Assembly (NCBI GenBank): GCA_017451395.1
Contig: JAFSPR010000048.1
Coordinates: forward strand, 1 to 47,179
Reading direction: 5' to 3'
Length of the DNA: 47,179 bases
Origin: Bacteroidales bacterium
GTDB lineage: Bacteria; Bacteroidota; Bacteroidia; Bacteroidales; UBA932
The position numbers and the translations under genes are program-made. The notes beneath the pieces are model-generated. The model saw only the letters and a list, made by a program, of their open reading frames with translations, was not told where the DNA came from and ran no database searches. Of this stretch, positions 3,690 through 9,855 are shown piece after piece. Position 1 is the stretch's first letter, and every line of letters begins with the position of its first letter.

Positions 3690-4586
3690 TTAGTAGATGT
3701 CGTCCAGGGAAATGTTGCCCCAGGTGGGGAGTGAAGGATCGTCTATGGTGGCATCGATGAAGCGGGGCGTACCCTTCTCGACGTCGTTCTGGAGGAAGGA
3801 GAGCACCTGGGACCAGGCCACCAGCATATAGGCGGCTATGTCGTGGGTGCGGTCCTCATACCTGTAGATGGTGTGAGGGTACTCCTTGAGGGCAAGTTTA
3901 CGGGCAATGTAGTCGCTGCCCCAGATGCCGCGGCCGAAGGCGGCGAAGGACTTGTAATTCACCGCTTGGTCGGCCGTGCCGTGAAGCATAAGGATGGGAC
4001 AGGGCTGCTTGGTGAACTTGGGAGCGCCGCTGGTGCTGATAATGGCGCCGGCAAAACTCATCACGCCCTTGAAATTGAAGTCAGGGATGTCACATTTACC
4101 GCTAATGACGGCATATTCCGACGCCAGTGAAATGATGGCTCCGGCGGAATTTCCCGCCACAACAAGGTTATCCGTGTCTATCCCAAGTTCAGGGTGCTCC
4201 CTGAGATATGCAACTGCAGAGAAGACATCCTCAACGCCAACTTCCTGAGCGTGATAAAACGCCTTGGAGGCCTTGAAGGCACCCGATAGGCCGTTTCCAA
4301 CCTTAACACCCTTCATCCCAAGCCTGTAATCCACGGCCACTACGGGATAGCCGTTCTCCGTGAGTTTGTTGTAGAATTCCACCAGGTATTTGTCGTTGCG
4401 GGCGCCGGAAATAAAGCCGCCGCCAAAGACAAACATCACGGCGGGCTTAGCCTCCTCCGCCGCCTCTGCGGGCCGATAAATATCCAACTTCAGTTCACAG
4501 GTATCCCTCTGGGCAAAAGTGTAGGTTTCCTGGGCACTGGCCGTAAGGCCTGCAAAAAGTGCGATGATTATAAGTAAACGCTTCAT
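3690..4586 (-). CDS. Secreted alpha/beta-hydrolase (carboxylesterase/lipase-like)
   Basis: A 298-residue alpha/beta-hydrolase with a signal peptide (MKRLLIIIALFAGLTASAQ). The oxyanion-hole GGGF is at 55-58, the nucleophile elbow GNSAG has Ser147, HGTAD supplies Asp206 and the RTHD segment supplies His248, so the triad is complete. The GGGF/GNSAG arrangement fits the carboxylesterase/BD-FAE group that deacylates short esters. The substrate cannot be read from sequence. Its ATG overlaps the stop of the alpha-2-macroglobulin-like gene by four bases, so it is translated as the last gene of that operon. An acetyl-xylan-esterase-like role is possible but not shown. Confidence 0.8.
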   Translation of the reverse strand: MKRLLIIIALFAGLTASAQETYTFAQRDTCELKLDIYRPAEAAEEAKPAVMFVFGGGFISGARNDKYLVEFYNKLTENGYPVVAVDYRLGMKGVKVGNGLSGAFKASKAFYHAQEVGVEDVFSAVAYLREHPELGIDTDNLVVAGNSAGAIISLASEYAVISGKCDIPDFNFKGVMSFAGAIISTSGAPKFTKQPCPILMLHGTADQAVNYKSFAAFGRGIWGSDYIARKLALKEYPHTIYRYEDRTHDIAAYMLVAWSQVLSFLQNDVEKGTPRFIDATIDDPSLPTWGNISLDDIY

Positions 4587-7500
4587 AATGAAGATTCTAA
4601 AGGTTTTCTATATTCAGTGTTTGCCCTATAATGAGGAGCATAAAGGGATTCTATCACGGTTACTGGAGCCTGGAACGAACCTGCGCGGGTAACAAAGAAC
4701 TCCTCCGCAAGTTCAGTCTTTTCTTCCGGATAGGAGTCAAAGTAGTATTCCGTGGCCGATGCCTTCACGTTGCGGTAGCCCTGCGGGGTAAATCCCCAAA
4801 CGAATCCGCTTCTGAGCGGACGGATGAATCCGTAGCCGATATGTCCGGAAAGTTGCTGAACGGGGTTCAGGGACGCTTCGCGGCCTGCCGTCACCTTCAC
4901 GAACGAGCGGTTCTCCCCGTTCCAGATCTTGTACACGATGCGGATCTTGTCTCCAACCTTCACGGGGTCTCCGGGCTGGATTTCTTTGTCATCCAGGAAG
5001 AAGCGGCGCTCAATGGTGAAGCCGTTTCCTGCAGCCTTAATGTCTTTGAACGGGGCTTTATAGGTGGCCGATAATGCCAGCACCTTAGTATCCAGAACGG
5101 CCTTGGAACCATCCAGGATAGCGGTTATGGCATCTATGTAAGCGGGCTCGGTATCCCACTTCTGCGTCTCCTTCTGGAGCATCAGCCACAGACGGATGCC
5201 GTCTGCTACAGCCGAAGGGGACACCTCTTCCGGAGCATTTGCCCGGACAGGGTTGCGAAGCAACGCGGAGGAAGAGGAGTCCCCTTCGGCCGCAAGAAGA
5301 TCGCACAGGAGGGCGTGGGCATAAGCCTCGCTTTCCAGAAGCCCCCTCCAGGGCATAACGGCATTGGGGTAGTACCAGCCGCCGTCACGGTGCTCTACGG
5401 CGTATTCAAGGAGAGATGCCACATCGGCCTTGAGGGATTTCTCAATCTTTGATTTGGCAAGTGTGATGCCCCAGGCCTTGGCAAGGGCAATTCCGCCGTC
5501 CCTCTCAAGGAGATTCTTGAGGGTTAGGAGCCTACGGGCCTTTGAAAGGATCTGGCCCTTAAGGCCACGGCCTTCCTTGGCAGAAGGTGTAAGGTAACTC
5601 TTTGCATCCTTCCTGAAGGCATCCCAGCGCTTCTTTTCACTTTGTGAAACAGCCTTTTCCGTGAAAGGAACGGATGCGTACATAGCGCGGACGTGCATAT
5701 ACTGGGCGTCGGAGAGCCAGCCGCACCAGTAGGGACGGACGTCCCCGAACTGATTGGCATCCAGATATTTGACGGATGAGGTGACGTCCGGAACGCTGAA
5801 GCCCCTGTCACGGAGTTTTGCAAAGCGCTCCAGCATCACCGCGGTAATTACCGGCGACGATGTCATCCCCTCGAACCATCCAAAGCCGCCGTCTGAGTTA
5901 CGGCAGGCCATTATCTTAGTGATAAGGTCCTCAACAGAGGAAGAGGCGCTTTCTGGAGCATTTGCCCGGATAGGGTCGCGAAGCGACGCGGAAGAAAGCG
6001 CCTCTTCCTCTGTCATAAGCTTATTAGCCATAAGCCGCACATACCAGGCCTCGGAGAGGGAGAGAACGTCGTTGCCCTGAGGCTCTACGTGGGACGGGAT
6101 GGCGTCCTTAACCATATCAAGGACGGTGATTTCCTTAAGATCGGCCCTGTTTCCGGGAACGTTCACAAAGCGGGAACGGAGGTCCCGCAGGAGCGCGTCA
6201 CGGTCCTCACCGGCGTGAAGAACGGCGGAGTGGGCTTCCGTAAGTTCCTGCGCCGCGGGGTATACGGGCACGGTCACGCGGACCGCGTCAGAGAATTCGG
6301 AGGCGATGAAGGCGGCGGTGAAGGTGAGAGATTTCTCGGCTTCGCTGGAAATGACAGAGGGTACCGCCACATTAATAACCTTTGTGAGGGTTTCACCGGC
6401 TGGAACGGTGACGGGCACCTGGGCGCTGCCGCCTTCCCACTGGAGTGCGATGACGCCGGAGACGGGGACATCGGCCACGGAAGAAACCGTGACAGCGGCA
6501 TCCCAGACGTCTCCTTCAAAGAGGAAACGGGGCTCCTGCATTGCCACCTTTACGGGAAGACTCACCACCATCTCCCCTTCCGCAATGGCGTTTCTCATCG
6601 AAGGGTCGTGCGCGTACACGCGTACATAATATGTGGAAAGTTTGTCGGAAGTGCGGAAACTGAAGGTGAGCGTTCCGTCACCGGCCGATACAAGGTGAGG
6701 CTGGAAGGTAAGCGCCTGGAGGAATTCACTGCGGATGGGGATATCATCCGGGATTGCGGCGCCTTCCACTGCGTCATCGGCCGCCATTTCATACTGGACG
6801 GACTCTTCTTCCACCGCTGCCATAGCGGGCGCAGCGTCAAGCATCACCGCTCCGTTGCTGCGGGCCATCTTGAGGCTTTTTGTGCCGTAGGCTATGAAAC
6901 GGGGATCGTCGTCATAGTAATCGTAACCGTTTCCAACGCTGCCACAGGCCGAGTGGACGTACACCATCGGCACGGAGTAATCACTCTGGTTCACCTGGGA
7001 CCAGTAGTTACGCGAGACGGCGTCCATACTCTTGTCCCAGGCTGCCGCAAGGGCCTCTACGCCGGGTTCGGTCCTGAGGGTAAAGGTATATTCCCTGCCG
7101 GGATAGGCCTTATCCGTGAAGCTTGAGAATGTGAGCGGCAGGGCAAGTTTAGTGACGCTCCTTCGGTACTGACGCTCATAACTGACGGCCTTTCCGTGGA
7201 GGAAGTAGAACACCTGGAGGCGCACGGCATCAGGCCAGGACTCCTTATAATCAAGGCCGATATCCATAAGCCTTCCGTCCTTTGCGGTAAGGCGGCTTGT
7301 CTGAAGGACCTCGCTGTCCTTGCCGTAGACGGTGGCAATGGCCCAGGCGTCGCCATCGGCCGATCCTATAACTGCCTCAATGCGGCCCTCAACGGTTGAA
7401 GGGCCGCCGATGAAAAGGCGGGAGCCATCCACCATCAGTTCTTTTTCTCCGGGAAGGAGCACAAGGACCTTGACTTCCTCGCTCTCCTTAACCTCATTGC

Positions 7501-9829
7501 CGTCCGGGAGTTGTGCCTTGACTGTTGCCTTGATGGTATAAAGGCCGCTCTTTTTGACGGGGATCCTGACTTCCTCTCCGGAAGGGACCACGCCGCACTC
7601 ACCGGCGATGTCGTACGTAACTTCAAGAGGCACGGAGTTACCCTGAGCGTCCTCTGCCTGGAATTTTGCTCGGATTTCGTTACCGCGGACAACGTGGCGG
7701 GGTTCCCTTCTCCAGCGCCAACTCTGACCTGAGTCTCCGGGAAGGATGAATTCCGCATCCTCGGTGCCAAGGACGCTGATTCCAACGCCCAGGCTTTCAC
7801 CTACATAGAAGCCGTCAGTGAAGGAAAGGGTCTCTCCGGTGGCGTCTATGACAGTGACCTCCGCGTGGTAGTAGCCTTCCTCGTTTGCGGGAACCTCGAC
7901 GCGGAAGAGTCCATCGGCCCCAAGGGGATGTTCCTCCTCAAGGACGGTGCTCTCCGACCAGTAATTCACCTTTATGCGTACGCGAGCGCCGGAAAGGCCG
8001 TGGCCGGAATAGGAGGTGACCTTTCCGCTCACGGGAACCTTGGAGCCAACCATATAGAGTTCCGTGCGGCCGTCAAAACTAAGGTCAAAGGTAGGGAGCA
8101 CGAATTCGTCCACCCTGAAACTGTCCCAGGCTAGGACATCCTTTGTGGAAACGTCTACAATCTCCAGGCGGAAATATCCATTCCTGAGGCCCCTGGGGAG
8201 GGTAAAGCCGCCGCTTGCAGAGCCAAAGTCCCCGGTTATGAGCCTCTTTGTTTCTAGGCGGTTACTCTCGGAGTCATAGAGGGTTACGTCCAGTTTCCGG
8301 CCCTTGCACACGTTCATCCTAAGCATGGGGTCTCCCTGGAACACCACGGCCTTGAACTGGAGGGAGTCTCCGGGATTGTATGCCCCGCGGTCCCTGTAGA
8401 CGTTGCATCTTATACCCGTGCGGGGGATATACGATGCGGCATCCCTTATGACGCCCACGCTTCTGGAACGACGGCCTCCGCTCACTGCAACGTAGTTATA
8501 ATACGTCCTGGGATGGGCGTTGATGGCCTTTTCAAGGGCCTGGGGTATGAGCGTGAAGCCGTCAAGTTTCATGGTTGCGCGCGCCGCCTCAGTGTCTCCC
8601 TTCATAAGGAGGAGAGTCACCTTGGAGAGGGGCTTTCCGGAGTCGTAATCGGCCACATAAACCTTGCGTCCCTCTGCGTCAGTGCGGGTAGCAATGGAGA
8701 GGGTGTACTGGTCAAATGTATCTGAGGCCGATATTTTCCCGTTCACGGCCTCGGCACGGTAACTGCCGTCCGGGAGGCCGGGAAGGGCCAGGCGCACGGT
8801 ATCACGCACATAGAAACTGCCGGTGGGATTCTTGGCGTTCCAGGTAGTTACAACGGTTTTGCCTTTGTAGAGTTTAACCGTGGCCGATGAAAGGTTACGG
8901 AAAAGGACAGTTATGGCATCCTTGTCTATGCTCAGCCCCAGATCCTGGGAGGTAAGGGTGTTGCAGATACTACTGACGTTATAGTATCTGGATGCAATTT
9001 TCAATTCCTTGTTACGGAACGCGGTGCGGCGGCTCTCAAATTCCTTGCACCTGTCATAGAATGCCTTATACTGGGCCGATGTAGAGGTTTTGCTTTCCTC
9101 AAGGTCCTGATAATCCATTCCCAGAAGGTCTCCTTCAGGGAAAATAGCCAGGGCAGTACCCTTGTACGCATCCTGGAGTTCCTTCAGGGCGGCCCGCTTC
9201 CGGGACCTTTCCTGAACGGAGTTATACTTCCTCCCTATAAGATAATACTTGAGGGCTCCTTCCTGGGGGTATTTCCCTTCAACCATCTTCTGAAGGGCCT
9301 CCACAACGGGCTCCGAGTACCTGCCGTTAAGAAGGCGCCAGTGCGCCCACTCCTCATCCGACTCCACAAACTGGGTGAGGCCTCCGTTCAGAAAGCCCGT
9401 CATCCCGCGGTGAAGGGCCGGGTTATTGCCTTCCAGAGGGTTCTTCCGGAGGTATTCCCAGAGTTCCTCCTGGCTTACGCCTTTCCACTCGTCCATCCAG
9501 AGGAAGGTGACTATGGGTTCATTGAACTCCTCCACTTCCTTTGCAAGGCCTTCACGGAGAGAGTCCCTCTTTTTCCAGTCACGGCGCTGGACTACGCTCA
9601 CGTACTGCGTTGCAGCATCCCAGAAATCCACCGGGAGGCGTTTTTCCATGGCTTCCTTCTTGATTTGCTCCAGGATGGAGGCTTCCTTTTTGGGGAGATC
9701 GGCCTTGGAGGCCTCATCATACTGCTTCCAGAGGGCAGTTAAAGTGTGACCGTCTTCAGACATAGTTGCCGCATTTATTGCCCCTGCCCAGGTGAGGGCA
9801 GCGAGCAGTGATAGTAGTATTCGTTTCAT
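4583..9829 (-). CDS. Giant alpha-2-macroglobulin-like secreted protein
   Basis: A 1748-residue protein starting at MKRILLSLLAALTWAGAINA (signal peptide). An in-frame ATG six codons upstream (9847) is less likely because it precedes the hydrophobic core. The middle holds macroglobulin-type beta domains: YRDRGAYNPGDSLQFKAVVF (MG-type), FRVDEFVLPTFDL, then the A2M signature region with LTFSFRTSDKLSTYYVRVYA. It ends with a helical thioester-domain-like region (GGFGWFEG…) and a C-terminal receptor-binding-like sandwich. I find no C-x-E-Q thioester motif, so trapping by covalent bonding is unlikely. Bacterial relatives are thought to guard the envelope against proteases. Three palindromic elements are translated in frame within it, near residues 1155-1172, 1273-1299 and 1514-1540. 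It lies between folC and the esterase on the same strand. Confidence 0.85.
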   Translation of the reverse strand: MKRILLSLLAALTWAGAINAATMSEDGHTLTALWKQYDEASKADLPKKEASILEQIKKEAMEKRLPVDFWDAATQYVSVVQRRDWKKRDSLREGLAKEVEEFNEPIVTFLWMDEWKGVSQEELWEYLRKNPLEGNNPALHRGMTGFLNGGLTQFVESDEEWAHWRLLNGRYSEPVVEALQKMVEGKYPQEGALKYYLIGRKYNSVQERSRKRAALKELQDAYKGTALAIFPEGDLLGMDYQDLEESKTSTSAQYKAFYDRCKEFESRRTAFRNKELKIASRYYNVSSICNTLTSQDLGLSIDKDAITVLFRNLSSATVKLYKGKTVVTTWNAKNPTGSFYVRDTVRLALPGLPDGSYRAEAVNGKISASDTFDQYTLSIATRTDAEGRKVYVADYDSGKPLSKVTLLLMKGDTEAARATMKLDGFTLIPQALEKAINAHPRTYYNYVAVSGGRRSRSVGVIRDAASYIPRTGIRCNVYRDRGAYNPGDSLQFKAVVFQGDPMLRMNVCKGRKLDVTLYDSESNRLETKRLITGDFGSASGGFTLPRGLRNGYFRLEIVDVSTKDVLAWDSFRVDEFVLPTFDLSFDGRTELYMVGSKVPVSGKVTSYSGHGLSGARVRIKVNYWSESTVLEEEHPLGADGLFRVEVPANEEGYYHAEVTVIDATGETLSFTDGFYVGESLGVGISVLGTEDAEFILPGDSGQSWRWRREPRHVVRGNEIRAKFQAEDAQGNSVPLEVTYDIAGECGVVPSGEEVRIPVKKSGLYTIKATVKAQLPDGNEVKESEEVKVLVLLPGEKELMVDGSRLFIGGPSTVEGRIEAVIGSADGDAWAIATVYGKDSEVLQTSRLTAKDGRLMDIGLDYKESWPDAVRLQVFYFLHGKAVSYERQYRRSVTKLALPLTFSSFTDKAYPGREYTFTLRTEPGVEALAAAWDKSMDAVSRNYWSQVNQSDYSVPMVYVHSACGSVGNGYDYYDDDPRFIAYGTKSLKMARSNGAVMLDAAPAMAAVEEESVQYEMAADDAVEGAAIPDDIPIRSEFLQALTFQPHLVSAGDGTLTFSFRTSDKLSTYYVRVYAHDPSMRNAIAEGEMVVSLPVKVAMQEPRFLFEGDVWDAAVTVSSVADVPVSGVIALQWEGGSAQVPVTVPAGETLTKVINVAVPSVISSEAEKSLTFTAAFIASEFSDAVRVTVPVYPAAQELTEAHSAVLHAGEDRDALLRDLRSRFVNVPGNRADLKEITVLDMVKDAIPSHVEPQGNDVLSLSEAWYVRLMANKLMTEEEALSSASLRDPIRANAPESASSSVEDLITKIMACRNSDGGFGWFEGMTSSPVITAVMLERFAKLRDRGFSVPDVTSSVKYLDANQFGDVRPYWCGWLSDAQYMHVRAMYASVPFTEKAVSQSEKKRWDAFRKDAKSYLTPSAKEGRGLKGQILSKARRLLTLKNLLERDGGIALAKAWGITLAKSKIEKSLKADVASLLEYAVEHRDGGWYYPNAVMPWRGLLESEAYAHALLCDLLAAEGDSSSSALLRNPVRANAPEEVSPSAVADGIRLWLMLQKETQKWDTEPAYIDAITAILDGSKAVLDTKVLALSATYKAPFKDIKAAGNGFTIERRFFLDDKEIQPGDPVKVGDKIRIVYKIWNGENRSFVKVTAGREASLNPVQQLSGHIGYGFIRPLRSGFVWGFTPQGYRNVKASATEYYFDSYPEEKTELAEEFFVTRAGSFQAPVTVIESLYAPHYRANTEYRKPLESSL
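5211..5290. repeat. In-frame palindromic element P1 inside the alpha-2-macroglobulin-like gene
   Basis: 80 bp. The outer arms 5211-5231 and 5270-5290 pair at 20 of 21 positions. The core shares 35 of 40 bases with P2, and its inner hairpin is GTTGCGAAGCAAC (5252-5264). On the coding strand the core reads ALLRNPVRANAPE. P1 and P2 are offset by 723 bases, so they are read in the same frame. Confidence 0.8.
5934..6013. repeat. In-frame palindromic element P2 inside the alpha-2-macroglobulin-like gene
   Basis: 80 bp, gapless with P1. The arms 5934-5954 and 5993-6013 are perfectly complementary (21 of 21) although only about half their bases match P1's arms. The inner hairpin is GTCGCGAAGCGAC, with a C-G pair where P1 has T-A. 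It is translated as ASLRDPIRANAPE. Confidence 0.8.
6314..6368. repeat. In-frame palindromic element P3 (SEAEKS-type)
   Basis: GGCGGT (6314-6319) and ACCGCC (6363-6368) enclose ATTTC (6331-6335) / GAAAT (6348-6352), all around nearly the same centre. The loop encodes SVISSEAEKSL on the minus strand. The sequence is unrelated to P1 and P2 but has the same design. Confidence 0.55.
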
Positions 9830-9855
9830 ATCTTGAGTCCATTTCAAGAATTGTG

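Follow-up and report, generated by a model that had tools for sequence, protein, structure and literature searches.

A dispersed family of in-frame palindromes with variable paired arms and a core found in both orientations in a Bacteroidales genus

Two palindromic elements that are read in frame within an alpha-2-macroglobulin-like gene of a Bacteroidales bacterium, here called P1 and P2, are members of a dispersed family of short palindromes in which a core is set between variable paired arms. The family is distinguished by a constant loop in variable arms, by inversion of that loop in place and by a near-exclusive location in open frames. We consider it likely that the core spread into permissive loops, that the copies were then inherited in place, and that arms and core have been reworked by template switching. 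The elements lie in a window of 47,179 nucleotides, the whole stretch of DNA that was analysed, which is contig C119 of the genome referred to as G000 (the window's own assembly, 2.15 Mb in 133 contigs). The features under study are the following.

4583..9847, minus strand: host gene, 1754 amino acids, alpha-2-macroglobulin-like (MG2, bMG10); both elements are read in frame
5211..5290, plus strand: element P1, 80 bp; core-plus on the plus strand, antisense to the gene; covariance model E 8.6e-20
5211..5231, plus strand: P1 left arm, 21 bp; 20/21 paired with 5270-5290
5232..5269, plus strand: P1 core, 38 bp, CGGAC/TTGC subtype; 35-base core pattern at 5232-5266 with 0 mismatches
5270..5290, plus strand: P1 right arm, 21 bp
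5934..6013, plus strand: element P2, 80 bp; core-plus on the plus strand, antisense to the gene; covariance model E 3.5e-20
5934..5954, plus strand: P2 left arm, 21 bp; 21/21 paired with 5993-6013
5955..5992, plus strand: P2 core, 38 bp, CGGAT/TCGC subtype; 35-base core pattern at 5955-5989 with 0 mismatches
5993..6013, plus strand: P2 right arm, 21 bp

An earlier note on this DNA, made from the sequence alone, had described two 80-bp palindromes that align without gaps, and the positions it gave (5211-5290 and 5934-6013) are exact. As it had reported, the arms pair almost perfectly (20/21 in P1 and 21/21 in P2), yet the two copies differ, their left arms agreeing at 10/21 positions when compared by eye. 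Bases 21-60 of P1 and P2 differ at five sites, and two pairs of these changes are compensatory, namely C-G to T-A at the arm base and T-A to C-G in the inner hairpin. The reading of both elements in the same frame of the minus-strand gene, as LRNPVRANAPE and LRDPIRANAPE, was likewise found to be correct. The core is best delimited as bases 22-59, that is 38 bp, against the 40 bases first assumed. The search for further copies in the genome that the earlier note had proposed revealed 12 in G000 at up to three mismatches in the 35-base core pattern, split seven to five between the two orientations, and the same pattern read backwards has 0 matches in G000.

Across the genomes compared we collected 146 distinct copies, P1 and P2 among them, taking those whose core pattern has at most four substitutions and that are flanked by 25 bases or more on each side; this 80-bp family of P1 and P2 is called family A below. 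A subset of 36 copies from seven genomes aligns without gaps in a layout of 21 + 38 + 21, with 96.7% of arm cells paired, a nearly invariant core and an arm sequence that varies between sites. Two-sided changes are found at all 21 arm positions, the outermost pair being the weakest (unpaired in 6/36 copies), and at its unpaired base the core ends, judged by eye, in GGA in 30/36 copies and in TCC in 6/36. For the named structure in these 36 copies, 97.5% of the cells are paired, against 72.7% in shuffles, and 256 cells are two-sided, against 63.5; 0 of 500 shuffles reach either value, and slid partners likewise fall far below the observed pairing. The consensus fold of the family is one long stem. 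The wider set is less rigid: at least 17/21 arm pairs in a fixed register are present in 134/146 copies, the other 12 falling below this value, some through indels, and in some copies the arms are longer, shorter or extended inward. The arms are variable and not random, as seen from a weak consensus in the 36 copies, from an agreement of 0.50 (SD 0.12) between unrelated copies and from arm position 20, which is C in 104/116 copies. The idea that arm variation is concentrated at third codon positions was dropped (permutation p 0.20 on 116 copies). At one locus (L127, the e2 site of G317) a family-A core contains a further palindrome-like insert of 39 nt, a multiple of three.

All 12 copies in G000 lie within long open frames, and in 11 of them the first base of the element is codon position 1. 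Among the 142 copies with at least 240 nt of flank, the best-scoring frame is open over at least 100 codons in 136 and lies in phase 0 in 125; in these phase-0 copies the core is antisense in 77 and sense in 48 (p 0.012). Coding calls are softer than these ORF counts and vary with the criterion: under a codon model that was trained on the host flanks of the family itself, 133/142 copies have coding-like flanks (score >0) and 96/142 pass a stricter score of >0.15, 92 of them in phase 0; one clearly dominant frame is present in 81/140. The eleven hosts classed or tried in G000 comprise DNA polymerase I, DnaX, ATP synthase gamma, a helix-hairpin-helix protein, an M20 peptidase, a DUF6259 protein, a SpoU methylase, prephenate dehydrogenase, isoleucyl-tRNA synthetase (its gene cut by the locus, and the match above the Pfam cut-off and just below the TIGR00392 cut-off), the alpha-2-macroglobulin-like protein with its two copies P1 and P2, and one protein without a match. 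A palindromic repeat is here read in frame in conserved protein genes and is absent from homologues, as is the case for the Rickettsia palindromic elements (RPEs). We take the elements to be RPE-like coding palindromes of a new family, probably neutral or selfish; the peptides that the open frames would encode are presumably tolerated as surface-loop inserts. Both core orientations are open in phase 0. Since the element length of 80 equals 26x3+2 and the usual start is on codon position 1, inversion in place keeps the phase, and a peptide of the LRNPVRANAPE type would give way to one of the AFARTGLRSNAE type, both being open. This genome has palindromes in coding sequence beyond family A: 13/18 REP-like pattern hits in G000 are also in coding frames (score >0), a share that differs from that of family A at p 0.011.

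As far as searched, the family seems to be restricted to one Bacteroidales genus. When a covariance model trained on the 36 copies was run against 400 genomes of the genus, 112 matched at E<=1e-3, the own genome included; the scan scored at most 11 places per genome, and its weaker, uninspected matches may include other palindromes. The same approach at the level of the order identified 1/295 genomes at E<=1e-6, which is the window's own. An exact scan for the core in one genome per species (84,980) found 98 stretches that carry it; the 80 of these that were listed are all titled Bacteroidales or Bacteroidia, with deer, reindeer, buffalo or goat as the animals named in titles, and for the MAGs among them the title does not establish membership of the window's genus. 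Carriage by phages was rejected, with the exact-core pattern found in 0 stretches of viral contigs. In a literature search that covered mostly open-access papers by titles and abstract openings, we found no paper naming the 80-bp family.

To account for these observations, we propose that the 38-bp core was spread by some agent into permissive loops of protein genes, where many copies would now be inherited in place. Template switching during replication, or strand exchange, between the two arms would copy one arm onto the other, and switching that runs through the loop would invert the core. Both outcomes, arm homogenisation and spacer inversion, are attributed to replication template switching in coding inverted repeats of yeast (PMC8604942), and template switching has been proposed for RNA stems (PMC8794818). 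Comparison of the copies reveals open frames, complementary arms that drift and both core orientations, and we infer that arm matching and core inversion may come from a single process.

Inheritance in place can be followed in the host gene of P1 and P2. Its segment 4901-6301 has matches in 99/121 genomes of the genus, own genome included. Homologues without the two peptides, which the earlier note had suggested looking for, are the rule: in the 30 best-matching aligned homologues of these 99 genomes, the P2 peptide is absent in 27 and present in three (G000, G019 and G054), and the P1 peptide is absent in 29 and present in G000 only. One scan of relatives scored only one or two candidates per genome, and gaps in it do not equal absences. 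G288 has P2 at the same site and no P1, its P1 loop holding other sequence; G183 has P1 at the same site and a P2 internally deleted by 51 nt, in frame; G125 carries P1 with one compensated change, G273 an element at the P1 site, and G222 neither P1 nor P2. By eye, the 51-nt deletion at the P2 site of G183 (L179:3518-4867) ends at short AGA repeats. The earlier note's proposal of independent insertion stands only in part, since many copies stay in one place by inheritance: the arms of orthologous sites are alike at 60-94% of positions, against 50% at unrelated ones, and exceed this background in every divergence bin (0.60 to 0.94).

In other relatives these loops are occupied by REP-like GTCAT...ATCT repeats or by elements of a second family (family B), or the loop is short. 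Clean empty sites were not found; at P1, the loop of G288 is not an uninterrupted copy of the flanks, and empty loops differ in sequence from filled ones, so that the exact insertion footprint and a target-site duplication are unreadable. The REP-like repeats, some of them as inverted pairs, are seen in family-A coding loops at L119, L120, L123, L124, L129, L137, L139 and L144, and L054 (G037) has tandem TCTTCTTCTGTCCTACCGGGC-type codon repeats in the loop where G000 has P1. The second coding palindrome family, seen among others at L136, L138, L140, L145, L149 and L151, has the core GCATCGGCCTTCTTNTTNGC between variable paired arms. Its pattern, with one mismatch allowed, occurs in 14/151 genomes, among them G133 (26 hits), G077 (17) and G141 (12); arms are paired at at least 20/24 positions in some copies, and many scattered hits in other genomes are armless and look like chance. 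In some second-family copies the core has the same ends as in family A, GGAGCAT and GCGGA.

Within a genome, non-orthologous copies of family A agree at 0.963 of core and 0.510 of arm positions (429 pairs), and orthologous copies from different genomes with a flank identity <0.82 at 0.927 and 0.637, respectively (137 pairs), in a comparison where 13/146 copies had no genome label. On these alignments cores appear to follow the genome and arms the site, a modest contrast, and in close genome pairs cores keep a memory of the site as well (G000-G183: 1.000 for orthologous and 0.950 for other copies). Arm-based template switching leaves the within-genome likeness of the cores (0.963 vs 0.510 for arms) unexplained. 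Recent bursts of whole elements are not supported as the cause of identical cores, as arms within a genome agree on average at 10.67/21 positions, like shuffled columns (10.80). Among 438 within-genome arm pairs 0 exceed 17/21, although many sites share an identical core; 45 reach at least 15/21, against about 20 expected, and some arms are related. Old copies with concerted cores fit best, and the cores could be homogenised by gene conversion, by exchange through an enzyme, or by selection through a trans-acting partner.

Regarding the agent of the spread, a MITE- or REP-like element moved by a hairpin-recognising Y1 (RAYT-type) transposase is a possibility that we entertain tentatively, and it is compatible with the inheritance and template switching proposed above. 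PF01797 is over the cut-off in 14/16 chosen carriers and in 5/12 chosen non-carriers (Fisher p 0.017), in genomes that were hand-picked and are related, but at E<=1e-3 the numbers become 14/16 and 8/12 (p 0.35). Two of the five PF01797 matches in G000 are located near elements, G000:C41 at 2.7 kb from e8 and G000:C3 at 4.1 kb from e6, which may be chance. Such a transposase is further disfavoured by the missing GTAG or CGTC tag (the element ends share no tetranucleotide in 36 copies), by an arm consensus that is only weak, and by the lack of a near-identical arm pair within any genome.

A related and rather unlikely scenario is that a hairpin-recognising trans-acting enzyme swaps core cassettes, in either orientation, among fixed site-specific arm sockets, with the cores being homogenised across the genome. 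Exchange of this kind would account for cores that go with the genome and arms that go with the site, for the absence of near-identical arms despite many identical cores in one genome, and for a second family built in the same way around a different core. If it were true, the genome would carry a set of in-frame, invertible and concertedly evolving peptide cassettes.

At orthologous sites the core is also found inverted in place. In 184 orthologous-site pairs, drawn from 138 copies, the core has the same orientation between homologous arms in 108 and the inverted one in 76; a less stringent orthology test at the protein level counted 131 same and 85 inverted among 216 pairs. These pairs are not independent and fall into 26 sites: at least one inversion is found at 16/26 sites, 11 with arms at least 75% alike, and the closest pair per site is inverted in 9/26 cases, or 3/9 at a flank identity of at least 0.9. 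Divided by flank identity, same and inverted pairs number 13 v 4 (>=0.9), 25 v 29 (0.8-0.9), 58 v 39 (0.7-0.8) and 12 v 4 (0.62-0.7), so that from close to distant the inverted share (4/17, 29/54, 39/97, 4/16) does not rise steadily. In the closest pairs orientation seems to be kept more often than not, the 4/17 inverted differing from half at p 0.049 only, and at p 0.51 when counted by site (3/9). The kept orientation weakly favours slow inversion over a fast switch or random misassembly; the genomes compared are MAGs, in which misassembly at palindromes is possible.

Where arms are at least 90% alike (n=30), 12 pairs are inverted and 18 have the same orientation; arm identity is 0.83 for same and 0.94 for inverted pairs at a flank identity of at least 0.9, and 0.71 and 0.70 at 0.8-0.9. 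Between L109 and L110, whose flanks are about 91% alike, arms and cores are identical, and within the element only the orientation of the core differs. Likewise, L040 and L107 (G045, G171) have identical arms and an identical, inverted core, with flanks 80-83% alike; the best-scoring frame of this pair is the unusual phase 1. At the e9 site, G382 has the flanks and arms of G000, G183 and G288 but a reversed core, and its left-arm mismatch is on the same side as in G000 despite the inversion, which suggests an exchange inside the arms, unless the mismatch arose twice. Inversion of the spacer with unchanged arms, as looked for under template switching, is found in L109/L110, in L040/L107 and in ten further pairs with arms at least 90% alike. 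The same pairs bear on repeated independent insertion, in which active elements would keep entering the same permissive loops and an inverted core would mark a re-insertion. We regard it as unlikely, because 12 inverted pairs keep arms at least 90% alike, compared with a background of 0.50 (SD 0.12). It is consistent with the loops that elsewhere hold REP-like repeats, family-B elements or short loops, and with L170/L209, where flanks are about 90% and cores 38/38 identical, but arms agree at only 8/21 positions each; re-insertion probably explains part of the turnover in any case.

The manner in which the arms change was analyzed in orthologous pairs with arms at least 70% alike only (30, 18 and 29 pairs in three bins). 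With increasing divergence of the flanks, one-arm and paired two-arm changes number 50 v 24 of 630 positions, 37 v 44 of 378 and 40 v 107 of 609; one-arm changes stay level at 7-10% of positions, and paired two-arm changes climb from 4% to 12% and 18%. In the three bins, 1, 9 and 10 two-arm changes leave one of the copies unpaired, and among the closest pairs one-arm changes outnumber paired two-arm ones (27 v 6 of 294). As a pattern, this is the arm homogenisation known from inverted repeats under template switching: it is what would be expected if a mutated arm were copied onto its partner or the partner onto it, and selection for pairing would predict much the same. Runs of two-arm changes (n=144) consist of 122 single positions, 15 runs of two, six of three and one of five; most two-arm changes are therefore not the multi-base events that are best diagnostic of template switching.

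The single-position changes, the very strong pairing with its 256 two-sided cells and the consensus fold into one long stem would also be expected of a functional RNA hairpin, whose structure in the mRNA is selected, for instance for regulation or co-translational pausing, and whose arms carry true compensatory mutations. We nevertheless judge such a hairpin to be distinctly unlikely: on the mRNA strand G-U mismatches are no commoner than A-C (44 v 51 in 123 copies), the core occurs both sense and antisense and turns up inverted at orthologous sites, the hosts are functionally unrelated, and the window has no Rfam match at the gathering score. With no difference in frequency between the two mismatches on the sense strand, selection for pairing is unlikely to act on the mRNA; together with the cores inverted in place, this means that the covariation is not by itself evidence of a selected RNA and points to copying of arms at the DNA level. 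On the core-plus strand of the 123 family-A copies, G-T mismatches exceed A-C (62 over 33, p 0.004), a possible sign of single-stranded recognition. Programmed inversion, in which a dedicated recombinase turns the core as a phase-variation switch of protein loops, is highly improbable: it would suit the 76/184 inverted pairs, the two orientations open in phase 0 and the weak arm consensus with C at position 20 in 104/116 copies, but no strictly conserved site exists in the arms, orientation is kept in 13/17 pairs at a flank identity of at least 0.9, and several G000 hosts have housekeeping roles, for example DNA polymerase I and ATP synthase gamma.

Several known systems share part of this behaviour. 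RPEs and the Wolbachia elements (WPEs) are described in frame in genes of conserved proteins, some of the repeats in solvent-exposed regions, and shared by orthologues (PMC3767692, PMC2229807). Like these, family A consists of palindromic inserts read in frame in conserved genes, and RPEs, named by the earlier note, are the right precedent for an in-frame dispersed palindromic family with covarying arms. It differs from both in a length of 80 bp versus 100-150, in its occurrence in Bacteroidales, in the site-specific arm sequence, in the core inverted in place and in having nearly all its copies in open frames. A CGTC tag is reported for the RPEs of R. conorii (PMC3733652); family A is without it, and the likeness to RPEs drawn here is one of behaviour. 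The additional statement that Bacteroidales hold no counterpart was too strong, as PMC3733652 has Bacteroidetes among five phyla with CGTC-tagged REPs; in the sections of that paper drawn on here, the described REPs are mostly intergenic, and intragenic ones are given for several species with Bacteroidetes not specified.

Similarly, CGTC/GTAG REPs and REPINs are short palindromes, some of them intragenic, and REP-like repeats occupy the same loops in relatives of G000; in family A, however, the constant part is the loop and not the stem. Unlike a MITE, the family has no conserved terminal inverted repeats, with an arm identity of 0.50 between unrelated sites and a weak consensus. The coding inverted repeats of yeast (PMC8604942) resemble it in arm homogenisation and spacer inversion inside genes, but they concern ten genes with spacers of 2-5 bp, whereas family A has a 38-bp spacer, is dispersed and was compared across species. 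Nematomorph mitochondria keep perfect inverted repeats inside translated genes, where they encode conserved protein regions (PMC6649704); retention of inverted repeats inside coding genes is common to both cases, but family A is made up of inserts that are absent from 27 to 29 of 30 aligned homologues.

Protein-coding palindromes are best known from Rickettsia and Wolbachia; this family adds a large Bacteroidales genus, in which they reside in genes such as polA, dnaX and atpG. The orthologous copies of the family offer a natural series of increasing divergence along which events of arm correction and of loop inversion can be counted. With this series the long-standing question of how hairpin stems keep pairing, by compensatory selection or by template copying, becomes directly testable, and the family serves as a warning that strong covariation can arise without a functional RNA.
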